Source: Caenorhabditis elegans
Lineage: Eukaryota > Nematoda > Chromadorea > Rhabditida > Rhabditidae
Assembly (NCBI RefSeq): GCF_000002985.6
Contig: NC_003283.11
Coordinates: 13,392,001 to 13,456,000 of the forward strand
DNA length: 64,000 nt
Reading direction: 5' to 3'
Shown in pieces: positions 41,442 through 51,371 of the stretch; position 1 is the stretch's first letter, and the number at the start of each line of letters is the position of its first letter. Under the pieces are notes generated by a model that was given only the letters and a program-made list of their open reading frames with translations, was not told where the DNA came from and made no database searches. Made by a program: the position numbers and the translations under genes.

Positions 41442-44400
41442 TCAAATCGGTTCAAACCGTTTTGTCTCTTTTTGAACTCGTCCACGAGTAGATATTGCTC
41501 TAACTTTGACCTCCACAGTATGAGGTGATGGAACTGATTGTGTCGACAACGCTCGTGCTTTTGTGATAGCCGACTTGGTTGCAGGAAACTCTATCGCTTT
41601 TCCGGTTTCTTGAATTGTTTGCAATGATGGCGTAGCTCGTTTCACAGGTGGCGCTTCACTTTCCACATCATCTCGACGGCTCTGTGAATATAATCGAATA
41701 TAATCGATATTAATACTAATATGATTATCGTACCTTTGATTTTTGTGCCCGTGGTGTTGAAGATGAAGCTGCGCGCGATCGCGATGAAACAGGGCTCAAG
41801 AGTTCTTGCGGTTTTTCGTGGAAATTCAACTCTGTAGATGTACTCAATGTTGATCCGGTGTCGGCTACAGGTTGATTGGAATTCTTCTGAAAAACAAATT
41901 ATGTTTAATGGCTATGTACCTGAATTGAAAATTCGATTTAGACCAAGTTAACTCTAGCAACCAAGGGTGCCATCAAAAATCGAATAATTAAAATTTTCTA
42001 TTTCCGAAAAAACTCGAAAAAAATGTTTTAAAAATTAACCATAAAGTTCTTTTTTTTTAAAATCAAATTATGTTTATGTTGATGAATAAAATAAGAAAAC
42101 ATTTTTTTAAATTTCTCTCTAAAAAGAAGAACAATTACAAAATTTTTGAAAGATATTTTTCGTGAAAACGAACATTTTCGATTTTAGTGAAAAATCGAAA
42201 AACCGACATCATTGCTGGCAGCAATTGATCGATTTAATCTCCAAAAAATACCTTTAAATTTTTCTTATTCTGGGAAATTGGCCATGATGCTTGTTGGACG
42301 AAGGAAGTGCTCGACGCGGAGCTTGTGGATGGTTTCGAAGGAGAAATTTCTGATTTCTTAGATGCGGTTCCGTTCTTTCCGGCCTGAAAATAAGAAATAA
42401 AATCAAAATGTTGAAACTTAGAAAAAAAGTTGGTACCTCCTGGCTCTTTCTATTCTGATTTTTTACAGATTTCTTCTTGGACGATTTGTTCTTTTTAGCA
42501 GCTTTCTCGGAACTATCAGCCACTTCCGGTTTCTCGCGTTTCGCTTTTCCCATTGTACCCATACAGTTTTCAGCTCCACATTCACAGTCTGGTAAGTTCT
42601 CCTCATTGTTCATATTGTAACTGAACGTGATCTCGTCGCCGTCGTCAATAGTGCGAATTGCCCGAATATAACTGCGAGTATCATATAAACTGCCTTCTTT
42701 GGTTTTCTTAACGAACACTTTTGTAACGAAAGATGCAGCGTTGGGATCGCAAGAATGATTGATGTATCTGGAGATGTTACCGTATCTGGCAGCGTCCACG
42801 GTTAATCCTTTGTGCAATTCCATCATATAATGGTTCGCCTTGAAAAAAAAGAGTATTTGGAAAGTTATACGTTGATAACTTAACTCTGATATTTTGCTTC
42901 TTAGACCTAAATAGCCCAAATCTACCAAATTTCGTATTTTTTTCTGAAAATGACAATTGGCAAAATATAAAATTTTAGCTGGAAATAGGCATTTTCCCAA
43001 AACTTTGAATCGCCGTAACTTTTTTTTGAGAAAATTTCAGAACGTTTTGTTCTAAAATTCGGTTAAAAGAAAAAGTAAAAATTCGTGTTTTTATCGCAAA
43101 AAAACTTTTTCCTTACCTGGAAATCTCGCGAAATTGAAACCGAATCCAAGCGCCTCTTCTTTTCAGCTTTATCGATTATTTCTCCAACGTACTCGCATAT
43201 GTATTCGTCTTTTTCGATTTGACCTTTCGCAAAGACACCGTATCCTTTACACAAAGTGGCTGCCAGTTTGATTTTCTCGCTAACTATTCCCATGGAAACT
43301 TGACGATTATGACAAACGCCCTTTTTCGAACAACTCGGGGGACATTCATAATCATCGGCGAGATATTGACACGACAGCTTTGTACAGCGGTCAGCTCCTT
43401 CACAATTGCAAACTTCGTTGTTGTGATACTCTTCCAGTTTTGGTTCGCATTTGTAGTACACAGATGTCTGGAATTATGAAGAAATTGCTATAAATAAATC
43501 TGAATCGGTTAAAAGTAAGAAAATAATTGTTAAGTTTTTCGGCAATTTTTAGCTGAATTTTTCTGCAGCACTGTTTGCACTTTTGTCCCAAAATGGTCTA
43601 AAACTACCAAATTTCGTAATGAGACATTCTCATTTTCCTCCAAAAAGAAGTTAGACGGTTCAAAATTTTGGAAAAAAATGACATTTTTTCAGCTAAAATC
43701 TCAAATATTGCAGATCTGACAAATTTCAGAACTTTTTTGTTTTTTTAATTTTTTAAAAGTAATGTTCCGTTGGTTGAGATATTAACTTTCGTCGGTTCCG
43801 CAATTTTAGCTGAATAAAAGCCTTTTTCCAAACCGTTGAAAAATACAAAACCATAGTCCGAATTAGATATTTCCTGAAGAATCAGTAGAATACTCACTCT
43901 CAGTCTTCCAAATACAGTTTTACACACGTACGGGCATCTCTTCAACGCAGTATCTGCTTGTTCCTCATATTTCTCTTCCCACAAGTTTCTAAGCGTCGAA
44001 TTCTTTGCCAACGAAAAGTAATTCTTGGTAAGACGGGCGATATCCGAGACCGGCACAATTGACATGAGAGGTTGTTTCTCTTTATCATTTTCTTGGGGTA
44101 TCAGCCACTGGACAACAGTATATCCAAGACGTTCAAAGTTGATATTACCACGATTTCCAGTAGGGTACTTGTACCAATCGAGTGTTAATGCTAGCCAGAA
44201 TCTGAATAGAAAATACATGAATTTGATAATTCTGATATTATAAACGCACGAATTGTCCGTCCACTTCGCGAGAATCAATGTATTTTGCGGAATCGGATCT
44301 CCACAAACACACGATTCGCATTGATCGTCTGGTATCGGTTTTCCATTCAGCGTTTCCACTTCTCGACATCCAGAATGAAACGATCGGCAACAAGTCTTGC

Positions 44401-45513
44401 ACATGATTGTTTTTGAATTCGAAGATTTCTCACATCCAATTACGCAACACGCTTTGATATGGGATTTCATTGTAACATCCGCTTTCGGAACAACAGTGAC
44501 GGCGTTTTTTCTTTTTTTATGTTTATTGTAGAATTGAACATCAGCACCAGGTAGATAGTGTGCTGGACAAATTATCATTTCGAACTTCTCCACTTTCCCA
44601 CCAATTGTTATCGAAACATTCAAATCTCGGCCACCTGATGGATAACACGACGTCAAATGGAAAGCGCGGAGACAGAGAGCACATTCTGCAATATCTCCAA
44701 CATAAGCCGATTGCTTGTGATGGTCCAAATTGCAACTATTGCAGCAATGAAGAGGGCACAGAAGTCTTGCTTGGCATTCGAGTCGGGCTGCATATTGAAA
44801 GTGAAAGCCGCCACTGTTGTAATTCTAAAAGTTTACACGATATTTGATGAAGAAAAATAATCGAATAGCTTACGATCATACAACTCGCGTGAAATTTACT
44901 ACGACAAGGAAACATTGGTATATTTCCCAAGAGACGCTTGCCGTCGTCCATTTCTCCATTGATGTATCCATGACATGTGATCAAATCAGATTTTCCGGTT
45001 TTATCCTTCTCTTCGTGGCAAATCACGCATTTTGAGTCAGCATCTGGAAGAAACTCTCCTTCCGCGTCGGCTTCAATCGGGGTGAATGGCGAAACACTCA
45101 GAAACTTTCGTGGCACGTGGGTGAAGGTAGCTGGAAAATTGAAAATTTAATGGACTGCCTGGAATTAATTAATGAAAATACTTTTTGGATAATCTGTGTC
45201 AACGAACTCCTCATATTCACTAAGAAATGCCTTCGTTTCCTGTATTTGCATCGAAATAATGTCTTTGGGAGCATTCGTTAGAATCGGTGCTTCTTCTTGC
45301 TTGTCTTCTGCATTGGATGAGGTTTCGGAACCCGCGCCTTGTGGAGTAGCATTCCGTTGTTTAACGTTCTTCTTTTTAAAAGGTTTATTTGGTCCTTCTT
45401 TCTCAACGATACCGTCCTGTGGAGCACAGTTCTCTTTGCTGGAGTCACCTGGAATTCGATGCATTTTTCGACCTGATTTTCGATTATTTAAACTCACCAG
45501 AGCTCGGCAGCAT
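41442..45513 (-). CDS. mes-4: MES-4, NSD-type histone H3K36 methyltransferase
   Basis: Ten exons, 45498-45513, 45182-45448, 44874-45130, 44250-44824, 43898-44201, 43117-43467, 42437-42838, 42252-42383, 41734-41886 and 41442-41681, give exactly 898 residues, the length I know for MES-4. Layout: acidic/basic N-terminus; PHD-like zinc fingers at about 118-240 (CVICHEEKDKTG, CALCLRAFH) and 306-353 (CCVIGCEKSSNSKTIMCKTC); a PWWP-like stretch at 355-430; AWS cysteines at 493-525 (CNCEGADRCTKLSCQYL); SET at about 535-665 with GYGVFAKG, YVGEIIDKAE, RYINHSCDPNA (614-624) and EITFSYN; post-SET CECGAENCMG (675-684); and a basic, Ser/Pro-rich tail. MES-4 maintains H3K36 methylation on germline-expressed genes and represses X-linked genes in the germline (established). 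Exon 1 is only 16 nt. The 49-nt intron after it was chosen because it restores frame to MLPSSGDSSKENCAP. Confidence 0.97.
42839..43116. repeat. Diverged foldback-repeat fragment in mes-4 intron
   Basis: The 278-bp intron contains AGACCTAAATAGCCCAAATC and CCAAATTTCGTATTTTTTTC, a degenerate match to the arm of the 46912-47505 palindrome (TAGACTAAAACTGGTCC..CACCGAATTTCAT). A second copy is in the next intron near 43590-43740 (AAAATGGTCTAAAACTACC). Both introns are several times larger than others in the gene. Confidence 0.6.
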
Positions 45514-46078: not shown

Positions 46079-46181
46079 TTTAAAAAATATGCCAAGAAGG
46101 TTCGAAATCACGGGAAATGCAAAGAAAATCGCTTGCAAAATCCCAAAAAATTGCTGCAAATTTGATTATGTAAATAAGGAG

Positions 46182-46466
46182 ACCCGAAGAACTCGGGGGA
46201 TGTCCAATTGGGGGGATTACCAACTCGGGGGATTGGCCCCGCCCACAGAACCGTGGCATGCAATACGCCCATTTCTGCAACTGCCGCACGGTTTTAAAAC
46301 TGTATTTTTCTCAATAGAACGAGAAATAACAAGAAAAAATAATTTTAAAACCGTGCGGCAGTTGCAGAAATGGGCGTATTGCAAGCCACGGTTCTGTGGG
46401 CGGGGCCAATCCCCCGAGTTGGTAATCCCCCCAATTGGACATCCCCCGAGTTCTTCGGGTCTCCTA
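46182..46466. mobile_element. Near-perfect foldback element
   Basis: Arms of about 110 bp: 46182-46296 (AGGAGACCCGAAGAACTCGG..CCGCACGGTTTTAAAA) and its complement 46350-46466 (TTTTAAAACCGTGCGGCAGT..GAGTTCTTCGGGTCTCCT). A spacer of about 50 bp (46297-46349) separates them. The arms differ at only a few positions, so the insertion is young. There is no coding capacity; it would form a long RNA hairpin if transcribed. Confidence 0.88.
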
Positions 46467-46672: not shown

Positions 46673-46911
46673 TTTCTGCATTTTTGGCTTTGTTGTTTTT
46701 TGTCAAAAACCATATTTTCATAATTTTCGTGTATCCGACGAAACATAAAGATCATGCAAATAGTAAAGTTTCTACGCAGATTGTTCCATTTTTGAGATTT
46801 CTTGAAGCTTTTTGCTCGAGCATTTGGAAAATTTCTGCAACAATTTTGGCTTGACTCGAAAATTGTCTGAAAATGCACCAATATGTTTCAAGGCGTGTAC
46901 ATTAAAGGGGG

Positions 46912-47505
46912 AGTACAGTTTGTGGGTATTTTGCTTAAATAGACTAAAACTGGTCCAAAACCACCGAATTTCATAATGAGACTTCACAAAAAATTTCCAA
47001 ACATTTTTATGGCCGGTCAAATTTTCGAAAAAAAAAGAGCCAAACTTTGCTAAAATCTAAAATTTCGCACACTTTTCTTTGTCACAGCTGCTGAATTTCT
47101 GTTTTTCTGAAATTATCACCCTTTAATCCTTATTTTAGTAATTTATCTCGCGGAAATTCGTTGATTAAGACAACTTTTGGGCCGATAGGCATCCAAAAAT
47201 GATCAAAATTGGATGCCTAGCGGCCCAGAAGTTGTCTCCATCAACGAATTTCCGGCGAGATAAATTACCAAAACAAGGATTAAATGGTGATAATTTCAGA
47301 AAAACAAAAATCCAGCAGCTGTGACAAAGAAAAGTGTGCGAAATTTTAGATTTTAGCAAAATTTGGCTCTTTTTTTTTCGAAAATTTGACCGGCCGTAAA
47401 AAATTTTTGGAAATTTTTTGTGAAGTTTCATTATGAAATTCGGTGGTTTTGGACCAGTTTTAGTCTATTTAAGCAAAATACCCACAAACTGTACTCCCCC
47501 TTTAA
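46912..47505. mobile_element. Palindromic TTAA-flanked element (PALTTAA-like)
   Basis: A 594-bp inverted repeat: the arm from TTAAAGGGGGAGTACAGTTT at 46912 is mirrored by AAACTGTACTCCCCCTTTAA ending at 47505, with the centre near 47195. Arms of roughly 280 bp are over 90% identical by eye. TTAA at both ends is the target duplication expected of piggyBac-type non-autonomous palindromes described in C. elegans. Confidence 0.88.
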
Positions 47506-47914
47506 CATACTTCAAATTTTTTTTGCACGTTTTCAGTAATTTCCATGATATAAAAACAAAAAGTACACTACCAGAGTACTCCATTAAATATTAATTTGAA
47601 CATTTTGAAATTATTTTGAAATTTAATGTTTTGCGAAAAAAATGAGAATTTTGTGTGAAATTCTCGAAAATCTCACTTATGATCCGTCAGAAGTTGCTCA
47701 TTGGACTGACATATAAGATCGACTGAAATATCATTTACTATTAATAAAGCGCTTATTCCGTTTGTCCATAGTTTGTAGTCTATGTAGTCTTTGTAGTCTG
47801 TGACGTCACACCCAAAGTCACTGAGAATTGTGGGCGGGTCTGTCATCCTTCGTGGTGAGACCCATCGTGGCGAGACCAATCGTGGTGGGACCCATCGTGG
47901 CGAGACCCAAAATT

Positions 47915-48175
47915 TTGGCGGAAAATTCAAATTTTCTGAGAAAAATATTGTGACGGGAATTTAAATTTTTAGTGAAAAATATTTTGGCGGGAAATTCAAA
48001 TTTTCTGAGAAAAATATTTTGGCGGGAAATTCAAATTTTTTGTGAAAAATATTTTGGCGAGAAATTTAAATTTTCTGAGAAAAATCTTTCGGCGGAAAAT
48101 TCAAATTTTCTGAGAAAAATATTTTGGCGGGAAATTTAAATTTTCTGAAAAAAAAATTTCGGCGGGAAATAGTTT
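47915..48175. repeat. Tandem TTTTGGCGGGAAA array (E2F-like words)
   Basis: About nine units of roughly 33-36 bp of the form AAATATTTTGGCGGGAAATTCAAATTTTCTGAG. Three keep TTTTGGCGGGAAA exactly and others vary at one or two bases. GGCGGGAAA is a classical E2F/DP binding word. Confidence 0.85.
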
Positions 48176-48189
48176 TCTGAAAATTCGAA

Positions 48190-48672
48190 AATTCTGGAAT
48201 GTTCCAGAACTTTCTAAAAAAATCGGGAAAATTCTGGAATGTTCCAGAACTGGGAAAATTCTGGAATGTTCCAGAACTTTCTAGAAAAATCGAGAAAATT
48301 CTGGAATGTTCCAGAACTTTCTAAAAAAATCGGGAAATTTCTGGAATGTTCCAGAACTTTCTAGAAAAATCGGAAAATTTCTGGAATGTTCCAGAACTTT
48401 CTAGAAAAATTGGGAAATTTCTGGAATGTTCCAGAACTTTCTAGAAAAATTGGGAAAAGTCTGGAATGTTCCAGAACTTTCTAGAAAAATCGGGAAAATT
48501 CTGGAATGTTCCAGAACTTTCTAGAAAAATCGAGAAAATTCTGGAATGTTCCAGAACTTTCTAAAAAAATCGAGAAAATTCTGGAATGTTCCAGAACTTT
48601 CTAGAAAAATCGGGAAATTTCTGGAATGTTCCAGAACTTTCTAGAAAAATCTAGAAAATTCTGGAATGTTCC
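48190..48672. repeat. Tandem 40-bp repeat with perfect heat-shock elements
   Basis: Thirteen copies of CTGGAATGTTCC, twelve within the complete 18-bp palindrome TTCTGGAATGTTCCAGAA or a one-base variant. The period is 40 bp except one shortened 28-bp unit between copies 2 and 3. The core is nTTCnnGAAnnTTCnnGAAn, i.e. four alternating HSF half-sites. The linker is ACTTTCTAGAAAAATCGG with minor variation, and its TTCTAGAA is itself a further HSE half-site pair. Confidence 0.95.
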
Positions 48673-49045
48673 GAAAAATTGAGCTTAGAGCTTTAGAAGA
48701 GGTAGTTATTTGGGAGTTGATGGGGGAGCAAGTCAAGGTACTGTAGTGGTACTATAGGGGTACTGTAGGTATACGGTAGGGTTACTGTAGTTTTGGAAAA
48801 ATTGGCATTTTGTCCTTTGAAGAGGTATTGGGTTAGGAGTCGGTGGAGGATAATGTCAAGGTACTGTAGTGGTATTGTAAGGTTACTGTCTTGGTCAAAA
48901 AGTAACAGAAAGTTTTCATACTGTCTGTGAATTTTTGAAACATGCATGTGTGCCAGTAAACCGCGTTTTAAGTGTTTCAAGTTTTTTTCATGATGAGAAA
49001 TTTTTTGTGTGATTGAATATATTCACATCATGTGCCAGTCGTTGC

Positions 49046-49062
49046 CCGCGCCGTAGGCGCGG
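49046..49062 (+). other. Helitron 3'-terminal hairpin
   Basis: Perfect 7-bp stem CCGCGCC/GGCGCGG with a 3-base GTA loop, followed by TCAGCGGCTGG and a T. It defines the probable right end of the mobile element. Confidence 0.75.
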
Positions 49063-49073
49063 TCAGCGGCTGG

Positions 49074-49966
49074 TAAAAAATAATTCTTATAACTAACTAA
49101 TAAATTGCAGCAGGAATACAATTAACAGAAACGCAACAAATTTGGAAGATAGTTCGATAATGTCTGCTCGTCATACACCGTTGTGCAACAGCAATCGTTC
49201 TATCCAACAGTATGCATGAGCCGCTTTAGTAATGATCATCATAAGCAGACATGAAACATTTCCATCTGTTGGGTTATTCTGTCTTTGCGGGAGAAGATCG
49301 GCGAGCTGTTATGTTCATCAACTATTCGTCCGGGAAAGATGGAAACAAAAACAGGCCCAGTTAATGCTCCGCCCCCGAGCAGACCCTATAATATCCTATC
49401 CCAATATCAGGTTGTTAATATCATCAAACGTCAACTTACACCGATTTATGCAAAAGAAACCTGCACCATTAAAAAGGTTTTTGAGAAATCCGACAGCCAC
49501 ACATCCCTAATTACGGTCACAGGACGTATATGTATAAATAAGTTGTGCCAACCAACGCGTTGCTCTGAAATAAGTTAACAACGAGAGACCACTTTTATGA
49601 TGAAAGACTTTTTTCATTGTTCTCATGAGGTGTTAAAAGTTTTTTCAAAGTTTTGCTTAAACGAAAAATTAATCTATGATAATTACTCTAAAACCTGAAC
49701 ATCTGAAAAAACTATGCATTTATGGTGTCTAATGCCAACTTTTCAAGTGTGACAGTGTTCTCACACAATATGCCATTCAAAAAGGCAATCACCTAGGCAC
49801 CTTCTGCTTCCTCGTTACAGCGGTTTAATGTCAGTTCTCACAATGAACTGTTTATCGGATATATCTGTGTCTCTTCCATATCATACACTGTCTCTCTTTT
49901 CAATACGTTGTACAGCGTAGTATATAAAGAGAAGTTCGATTGGCAAAATGTACACTGTCACCTAAA
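49074..49966. other. Collagen upstream region with TATA box
   Basis: About 0.9 kb without a gene. TATATAAAG (49921-49928 region) lies about 40 bp upstream of the collagen ATG, at normal promoter spacing. The stretch 49230-49560 is GC-richer but has no splice-consistent frame. Confidence 0.55.
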
Positions 49967-51371
49967 ATGTCAGCAAAGACTCTTGTATACGGCGCTAGCG
50001 TCTTGAGTGGTTTCGCTATTCTTGGATGTGTGTTCACTGTTGGATACATTTTCAATGATATCAATGAGTTCTACGATCAAACTATGGAGACTATGGACGA
50101 ATTCAAGGTAACCGCCTATTTTTGTTGATAGAGGAGATACCGTATTTCCTCTATTAGTAAGGCGTTTCTATTAGTTTTGCATCTAAAATCAATTATCGAA
50201 AATTAGTTTTGCACTCTCTATTAGTTTTGCACCTCTAATAGTTTTGCACCCCTTCATTTGTGCCCTATTTTGAGGGTTCAAAACTTTCATTATTAAGTTG
50301 TGCTACAAATTAAAAAAAAACTTCTCCTATTTAAATCTCCTATTTATGGGATCTTATTCGTGCTTGAGGGAAAACTCTTACGGTGTCAAAATCGGTAAGA
50401 TATGAGTACAACTCGGACAATTTTTGCGTATCAGTCGTAAATTTCGTCTATGCTGGTTTAATATTTGTTATTGAAATTGAAGATATTGTGTCATAACTTA
50501 ATGGAAAACATGAGAAAAAACTTGTTCGAAAATTAGTATGGCAGCCTATATTAGTTTTGCGTCTGAATAGGTGTCTGAGGGTATTGCATGCCTTACTAAA
50601 AGGGGAAATACGGTACTTAATTTAACACTTTTCCAGTTGAACGAACGTGGTGCCTGGCATGGAATGGTTGAGCGTACTCGTGCTCCATCTGAGATTCTTT
50701 TCGGACGTGCTAAGAGACAAGCCGGTCAATGCAACTGTGGAGCTCAATCATCTGGATGCCCAGCTGGACCACCAGGACCACCAGGAGCCCCAGGAGCACC
50801 AGGAGATGATGGACATGCTGGAGAAGCTGGAAAGCCAGGAACCGCCGGTGTTGCTGTTGGTATTGTTTCGGAGGGTGGACCATGCATCAAGTGCCCAGCA
50901 GGAGAGCCAGGACCAGCAGGAGAGGCAGGAGCCCCAGGACCAGCCGGACCAGACGGACAACCAGGACAAGATGGGCAAGGAGGACAACCAGGACCAGCAG
51001 GACCAGCCGGACCAGCCGGAGATGCCGGAGCCCCAGGAGCCCCAGGACAAGATGGACAGCCAGGAGCCCCAGGGCAAGATGGACACAGATCTACTGGAAC
51101 CCCAGGAGCTGCCGGAGCACCAGGACCAGCTGGACCAGCTGGACAAGATGGACAACCAGGATCTGCTGGAGGACCAGGAGAGGCTGGAGCTCCAGGAGCA
51201 CCAGGACCAGACGGACAACCAGGACAACCAGGACAAGACGGAGAAGCTGGAGCTCCAGGACAAGATGGACAACCAGGATCCGATGCTGCTTATTGTCCAT
51301 GCCCAGCAAGATCTGTTGCTGTTCAACGCAGTGTTTCTCGTAGAAGAGCATCAAAGGTCGTTGTCGCTTAA
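49967..51371 (+). CDS. Cuticle collagen (col family)
   Basis: Two exons, 49967-50107 and 50637-51371, give 291 residues. The N-terminal non-collagen domain has a hydrophobic signal/anchor ([20 protein letters not shown]). A subtilisin/furin-type processing site RAKR is at 71-74, where nematode procollagens are cut. Cysteine cluster [10 protein letters not shown] then leads into Gly-X-Y blocks: a short one ([16 protein letters not shown]), an interruption with CIKCP, a long Ala/Gln/Asp-rich block, an RST break, another block, and a YCPCP terminus. This matches the C. elegans cuticular collagen plan; chains trimerise in epidermal cells and are crosslinked into cuticle. QDGQPG units repeat at DNA level. 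AATAAA is at 51397. The start at 49967 is the first ATG in frame with the anchor; an ATG at 49948 is in another frame. Confidence 0.96.
50138..50615. mobile_element. MITE filling the collagen intron
   Basis: Terminal inverted repeats TACCGTATTTCCTCTATTAG at 50138 and, inverted, CTAAAAGGGGAAATACGGTA ending at 50615. ATTAGTTTTGC and TATTAGTTTTGCACC occur repeatedly inside. The element makes up 478 of the intron's 529 bp. It starts and ends with TA, as expected for a Tc1/mariner-type target duplication. There is no coding capacity. Confidence 0.8.

Follow-up and report, generated by a model that had tools for sequence, protein, structure and literature searches.

A probable HelitronY4_CE copy with a ladder of heat-shock elements upstream of a collagen gene in Caenorhabditis elegans

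Helitrons with heat-shock elements and the element in the window

Tandem repeats of 15 bp and 40 bp have been assigned to the Helitron family HelitronY4_CE (Glauser 2014, text available in part). According to the available text of Garrigues 2019, heat shock raises HSF-1 binding on five Helitron types including HelitronY4_CE, of which eight copies carry more than 100 heat-shock elements (HSEs). The same text counts, over all Helitron types, 60 heat-induced genes downstream of bound Helitron HSEs at distances of up to 2.5 kb, compared to 13 in the background, and reports that collagens are enriched among the Helitron-driven heat-shock genes. It further describes that heat shock raises both HSF-1 and Pol II at Helitron HSEs and that genes beside these HSEs have a lower output and more repressive marks. 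In another source, Helitron families are strongly associated with heterochromatin factors and H3K9me2. The DNA-binding domain of C. elegans HSF-1 binds cooperatively to most tested HSEs in vitro (PMC9148306, accessible part). The view of the initial annotation that Helitron HSEs rewire the heat-shock response is thus borne out in print, by HSF-1 binding and by induced genes. Since the repeats, the HSF-1 binding, the rewiring and the collagen enrichment are all published, the locus described here is known in kind; the phenomenon is already known, and the additions are a regular decamer ladder and a paired E2F-like array.

The window is a stretch of 64,000 nucleotides (C5:13392001-13456000) of the searched genome, which comprises 100,286,401 bp in 7 contigs. 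Its features are listed in Table 1. The element starts with TC inserted after A (47730/47731), and its CTRR-type 3′ end, CTGG, is followed by T (49073/49074). The left border was set by the TC and by the point where homology ends; within the window copy itself the first ~25 bp are diverged, and in three of the nine left ends recognised elsewhere (L040, L041, L042) the similarity to the window extends a few bases further left. These nine left ends (A before TC in eight, T before TC in one) and 18 right ends (CTGG followed by T in 17, CTTG followed by T in one) were found in 20 other fetched loci, which were hand-picked from the best-scoring, array-rich matches and are not a random sample. Folded as DNA, the 3′ hairpin with the core CCGCGCC-GTA-GGCGCGG reaches −16.8 kcal/mol (z −4.63), a stability equalled in 0 of 200 shuffles. 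Ends and hairpin agree with those of the other copies.

Table 1 Features of the locus (positions in the window)
Feature	Position	Strand	Remarks
SET-domain gene (called mes-4 in the initial annotation), divergent neighbour	42254..45497	-	
Probable non-autonomous Helitron copy, HelitronY4_CE type	47731..49073	+	1,343 bp, between A (47730) and T (49074)
15-bp tandem repeat TCGTGGCGAGACCCA, 4 copies	47850..47909	+	Tandem Repeats Finder
35-bp tandem repeat with E2F-like TTTGGCGGGAAA, 7.4 copies	47912..48170	+	Tandem Repeats Finder
Heat-shock-element ladder, 40-bp repeat of four TTCnnGAAnn decamers	48187..48676	+	
11-bp TACTGTAG-bearing repeat	48737..48790	+	Tandem Repeats Finder
3′ terminal hairpin and CTGG end	49035..49073	+	last 39 bases, DNA folding
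Cuticle collagen gene, 291 aa	49967..51371; exons 49967-50107, 50637-51371	+	exons hand-placed from splice sites and translation

When one mismatch was tolerated, GCGCGGTCAGCGGCTGG was found at 146 genome places, 75 on the forward and 71 on the reverse strand (control 0); the end of the window element is thus part of a large family. A genome search with 47600-49120 gave at least 460 matches, a lower bound because 40 of 1,327 candidates were scored, and query position 1475 is the end of many among the matches listed. Judged by length, the 1,343-bp element has no frame for a Rep/helicase: the two open reading frames of at least 60 aa overlapping it have 85 and 95 aa (bacterial start rules). Such a protein is expected in autonomous Helitron copies only and is not required of a non-autonomous copy. 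The assignment as a Helitron-like element is upheld by the ends, the 3′ hairpin and the two published HelitronY4_CE tandem repeats (15-bp and 40-bp), which are present together in this one element. Most probably it represents one HelitronY4_CE copy with the usual internal tandem-repeat cassette of the family, a confidence that we extend to the explanation as a whole, including the supposed HSF-1 binding and collagen effect discussed below.

The ladder of heat-shock elements and its companion arrays

At 48187-48672 Tandem Repeats Finder placed 12.5 copies of a repeat with period 40, interrupted locally by a step of 27 bp. On the + strand of the window TTCTGGAATGTTCCAGAA is present at 13 places with up to two mismatches (starts 48192 to 48659), 11 of them exact; one near-exact unit has G instead of T at its first position (48459-48476), and the 13th unit is truncated (48659-48676, two mismatches). 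All steps between units are 40 bp save one of 27 bp (48232 to 48259), which interrupts the half-site register once between these positions. The motif had 0 matches in 100 dinucleotide shuffles of the window, while 509 exact copies were found genome-wide (243 forward, 266 reverse; reversed-pattern control 0). The array is real and lies where the initial annotation had placed it. Its 13 units were counted correctly, with one exception to the 40-bp period; the supposed twelve perfect HSEs are 11 perfect ones and one near-perfect one in addition to the truncated unit, and the 18-mer, described as a palindrome, is not a perfect one, its reverse complement differing at two central bases. A motif had also been noticed in most linkers, and indeed eight of the 11 complete 40-bp units that were recognised in the window retain the GAA of TTCTAGAA. 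The suggested comparison of copies across the genome was carried out with these exact 18-mers and the element matches given above.

The 40-bp unit reads TTCTGGAATG TTCCAGAACT TTCTAGAAAA ATCGGGAAAA, four TTCnnGAAnn decamers with ATC or ATT replacing TTC in the fourth. Thus, the array is an in-register ladder, and the 40-bp unit is a higher-order repeat of the HSE decamer, so that the apparent linker is a further HSE. This refines the earlier reading: the linkers are in-phase HSE decamers too. Over 48259-48676, 69 of 84 alternating nGAAn half-sites are exact in the 5-bp register, compared to 0-2 half-sites in the other nine phase/parity settings, and the longest in-phase run elsewhere in the window is three half-sites, at five places. 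Ladders of six in-register half-sites were found at 1,554 genome places (control 0); since the pattern equals its own reverse complement, every place is listed on both strands. Tandem Repeats Finder also reported an internal 10-bp period for the arrays of 8 of 10 further loci (L059-L068), all on C1 and chosen by the six-half-site pattern.

The motif of the 35-bp repeat, putatively of the E2F/CHR type, has TTCAAA after TTTGGCGGGAAA in some units. The full motif GGCGGGAAATTYRAA, in which TTYRAA stands 4 nt beyond the E2F-like core, is complete in 147 of 233 units and in three of the six units recognised in the window. Letters of the E2F/CHR type were not found in the available text of three DREAM papers. 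Scored with a window-like, hand-typed 35-mer, position 17 has a mean mismatch of 0.90 and the E2F-like core one of 0.03; the CHR half is therefore insecure and the core secure. The reading as a clean E2F-CHR (DREAM) module was set aside, as the loci mostly differ from the 35-mer at position 17.

Of the 21 loci, 19 carry the E2F-like GGCGGGAA, the exceptions being L052 and L055, and in all 19 the HSE array follows directly. Among the ten other loci, the order is reversed in L062 and L066, with HSE before E2F, and no E2F-like run was found in the short stretches fetched for L063, L064, L067 and L068. According to this, the modules can be reordered or lost. Genome-wide, TTTGGCGGGAAA, a 12-mer, has 2,704 matches (control 7) and TTGGCGGGAAATTCAAA 1,735 (control 0). 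The paired E2F-like array is a refinement of the published picture.

Downstream of the ladder, TACTGTAG is located at 48739, 48761 and 48783 and a fourth time at 48862, the repeats spanning 48737-48900. Runs of TACTGTAG adjoin the HSE arrays in 18 of the 20 other HelitronY4-type loci and are missing in L054 and L057. In L043 (C4:14474000-14481900) the series of 15-bp, E2F-like and HSE repeats occurs seven times in succession, which indicates amplification of the whole cassette.

Neighbouring genes and the proposed action of the array

The collagen gene has the Pfam domains Col_cuticle_N and Collagen, and the distances from its ATG (49967) to the 3′ end of the element and to the array are 0.9 kb and 1.29 kb. 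On the other side, a SET domain was found in two reading frames of the putative mes-4, whose first ORF starts near 45497, 2.7 kb from the array; an NSD-type variant PHD remained below the cut-off (20.9 vs 27 bits), and the family search gave none for the two ORFs nearest the start. The initial distances of 1.3 kb and 2.7 kb agree with these values. By the 2.5-kb rule of Garrigues 2019 the collagen gene qualifies on distance, while mes-4, measured to its ORF start, falls just outside. Neither gene is named in the available text of the Helitron-HSE papers.

Several further repeats surround these genes. Just left of the Helitron, 46897-47510 forms a long inverted repeat, apparently another transposon-like element, with arms at 46988-47156/47250-47418 (92% complementary) and 46897-47036/47371-47510 (89%). 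A second inverted repeat (46177-46465) has 132-nt arms, 97% complementary and 25 nt apart, and contains facing AACTCGGGGGATTACC-type tandem repeats. The collagen intron holds a 17-bp ATTAGTTTTGCACCTCT repeat (50202-50250).

Upon heat shock, activated HSF-1 trimers would bind cooperatively along the TTC/GAA ladder in 5-bp steps. Binding at the window array is likely, judging from published family-level ChIP, and a bound copy could confer modest heat inducibility on the collagen gene, probably damped by repeat silencing. The collagen gene is the neighbour likeliest to respond and its control by the array is possible; control of mes-4 appears less so, and mes-4 as main target is disfavoured, on distance only. 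Taken together, a HelitronY4_CE copy that is bound by HSF-1 and makes the collagen gene somewhat heat-inducible, with mes-4 less probably affected, is the explanation that we hold with high confidence. The locus clearly exemplifies a published phenomenon, in which a Helitron places HSF-1 sites next to a collagen gene.

Half-site conservation, alternative explanations and known systems

Conservation of the half-sites was compared in two samples with opposite outcomes. In 12 arrays from ten other loci the half-site columns are more uniform than the spacer columns (0.81 vs 0.52, difference 0.28), in arrays picked by pattern and with the phase picked to favour TTC/GAA; 232 decamers were used, those touching exact six-half-site matches being set aside. 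When the single letters of the same arrays were shuffled 200 times and the phase was picked afresh, the largest difference was 0.033. Two of the 12 arrays, that of L059 and the second one of L064, show a weak contrast; the commonest letter in their TTC column 3 is T. No contrast between half-sites and spacers was found in 564 HelitronY4 40-bp units from 21 loci (mismatch lower in 10, higher in 11; p=0.64), scored with a 40-mer that tolerates at most 10 mismatches and overlooks units of greater divergence. Among the five 3-of-5 position sets, that of the HSF register (mismatch 0.0466) is not the best kept, a neighbouring set having 0.0343. Selection on HSF contacts within HelitronY4 is not supported. 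As had been claimed, the palindrome is less varied than the linker when loci are counted, with the lower mismatch in 19 of 21 (p=0.0004). This depends on linker positions 33, 35 and 40, without which the linker mismatch is 0.034 compared to 0.040 in the palindrome (21 loci). We infer that the decamer ladder was once built and kept as HSF sites, and that today's 40-bp units are young and homogenised.

These data bear on a reading in which the array is an inert passenger, homogenised by slippage and rolling-circle copying, which HSF-1 may touch while the neighbours stay unresponsive. This is quite plausible, if short of an even chance: the missing half-site-specific constraint in the HelitronY4 units, the near-uniform 40-bp spacing, as expected from tandem duplication alone, and the published heterochromatin factors on Helitrons all fit, whereas the better-kept half-sites in arrays of other loci and the published surplus of induced genes beside bound Helitron HSEs do not. 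Somewhat more doubtfully, the HSE, E2F-like and TACTGTAG arrays could act as a selfish promoter/enhancer cassette that opens the Helitron in stressed or dividing germ cells and so allows nicking or the expression of an autonomous partner. The constant order of the E2F-like and HSE arrays in the 19 HelitronY4-type loci and the genome-wide excess of TTTGGCGGGAAA are consistent with this, as are published statements, available in part, that transposable elements contain at least 20% of the EFL-1 binding sites and that Helitron1_CE RNA is heat-induced and sensitive to HSF-1 levels. Nevertheless, the available text on those EFL-1 sites names no element behind them; the word HelitronY4 is absent from it, and Helitron from that of a second paper. 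The incomplete GGCGGGAAATTYRAA units and the loci with reversed order or without an E2F-like run also argue against such a cassette.

Array size bears on a further proposal. Recognised HSE units range from 9 to 201 per locus in the 21 loci compared (12-13 in the window copy), in counts that leave out the search-derived loci L001-L038, some of which overlap fetched stretches and others, such as L001, L031, L034 and L035, do not. The largest array, L054 (within C5:7915400-7925300), has 201 units with 199 of 200 spacings exactly 40 bp, 22 exact 18-mers and 183 exact cores TGGAATGTTCC. Jointly, such ladders might titrate HSF-1 as decoys and seed its nuclear stress bodies. The decoy part is already in print, second-hand via the review PMC9737000. 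The accessible part of this review reports that HSF-1 in heat-stressed germ cells prefers Helitrons, and that worm HSF-1 granules of largely unknown composition re-form in similar places, implying a scaffold. Because of this and of the ladder anatomy, we suggest as an unlikely but specific idea that the Helitron HSE ladders, above all the multi-kilobase one at C5:7915400-7925300, are the missing DNA scaffold of the C. elegans stress bodies. The exact half-sites of L054 (1,170 of 1,608) fit this idea, but its first half-site is exact in just 39 of 201 units, and the window copy is small on its own. Furthermore, the same part of the review describes worms as being without satellite repeats and reports dsRNA foci which partly overlap the HSF-1 granules, a different candidate partner (PMC9737000). 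A limited search of partly available literature found no stress-body role for HSE Helitrons. If the idea were true, a transposon family would have supplied the worm counterpart of human satellite III, and the paired E2F-like and HSE arrays would tie the scaffold to germline HSF-1/E2F control. Kilobase-long, largely in-register ladders make a location of worm HSF-1 foci on transposon DNA directly testable.

Human satellite III of the nuclear stress bodies is, like the ladders, tandem DNA with closely spaced HSF1 sites; repeats in the human granules are also mentioned in PMC9737000. Satellite III is pericentromeric, whereas the worm ladders are dispersed transposon minisatellites with alternating half-sites. 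Returning to the HSF-1-bound HelitronY4_CE copy as preferred explanation, the HelitronY1_CE upstream of col-88 (Garrigues 2019) is likewise a many-HSE Helitron upstream of a collagen gene, but belongs to another Helitron family and has 10 HSEs. The closest system is HelitronY4_CE itself, an HSF-1-bound family whose published 15-bp CCATCGTGGYGAGAC and 40-bp AAAATTCTGGAATGTTCCAGAACTTTCTAGAAAAATTGGG repeats are common to the window copy; on these repeats, no difference in kind was seen between the two.
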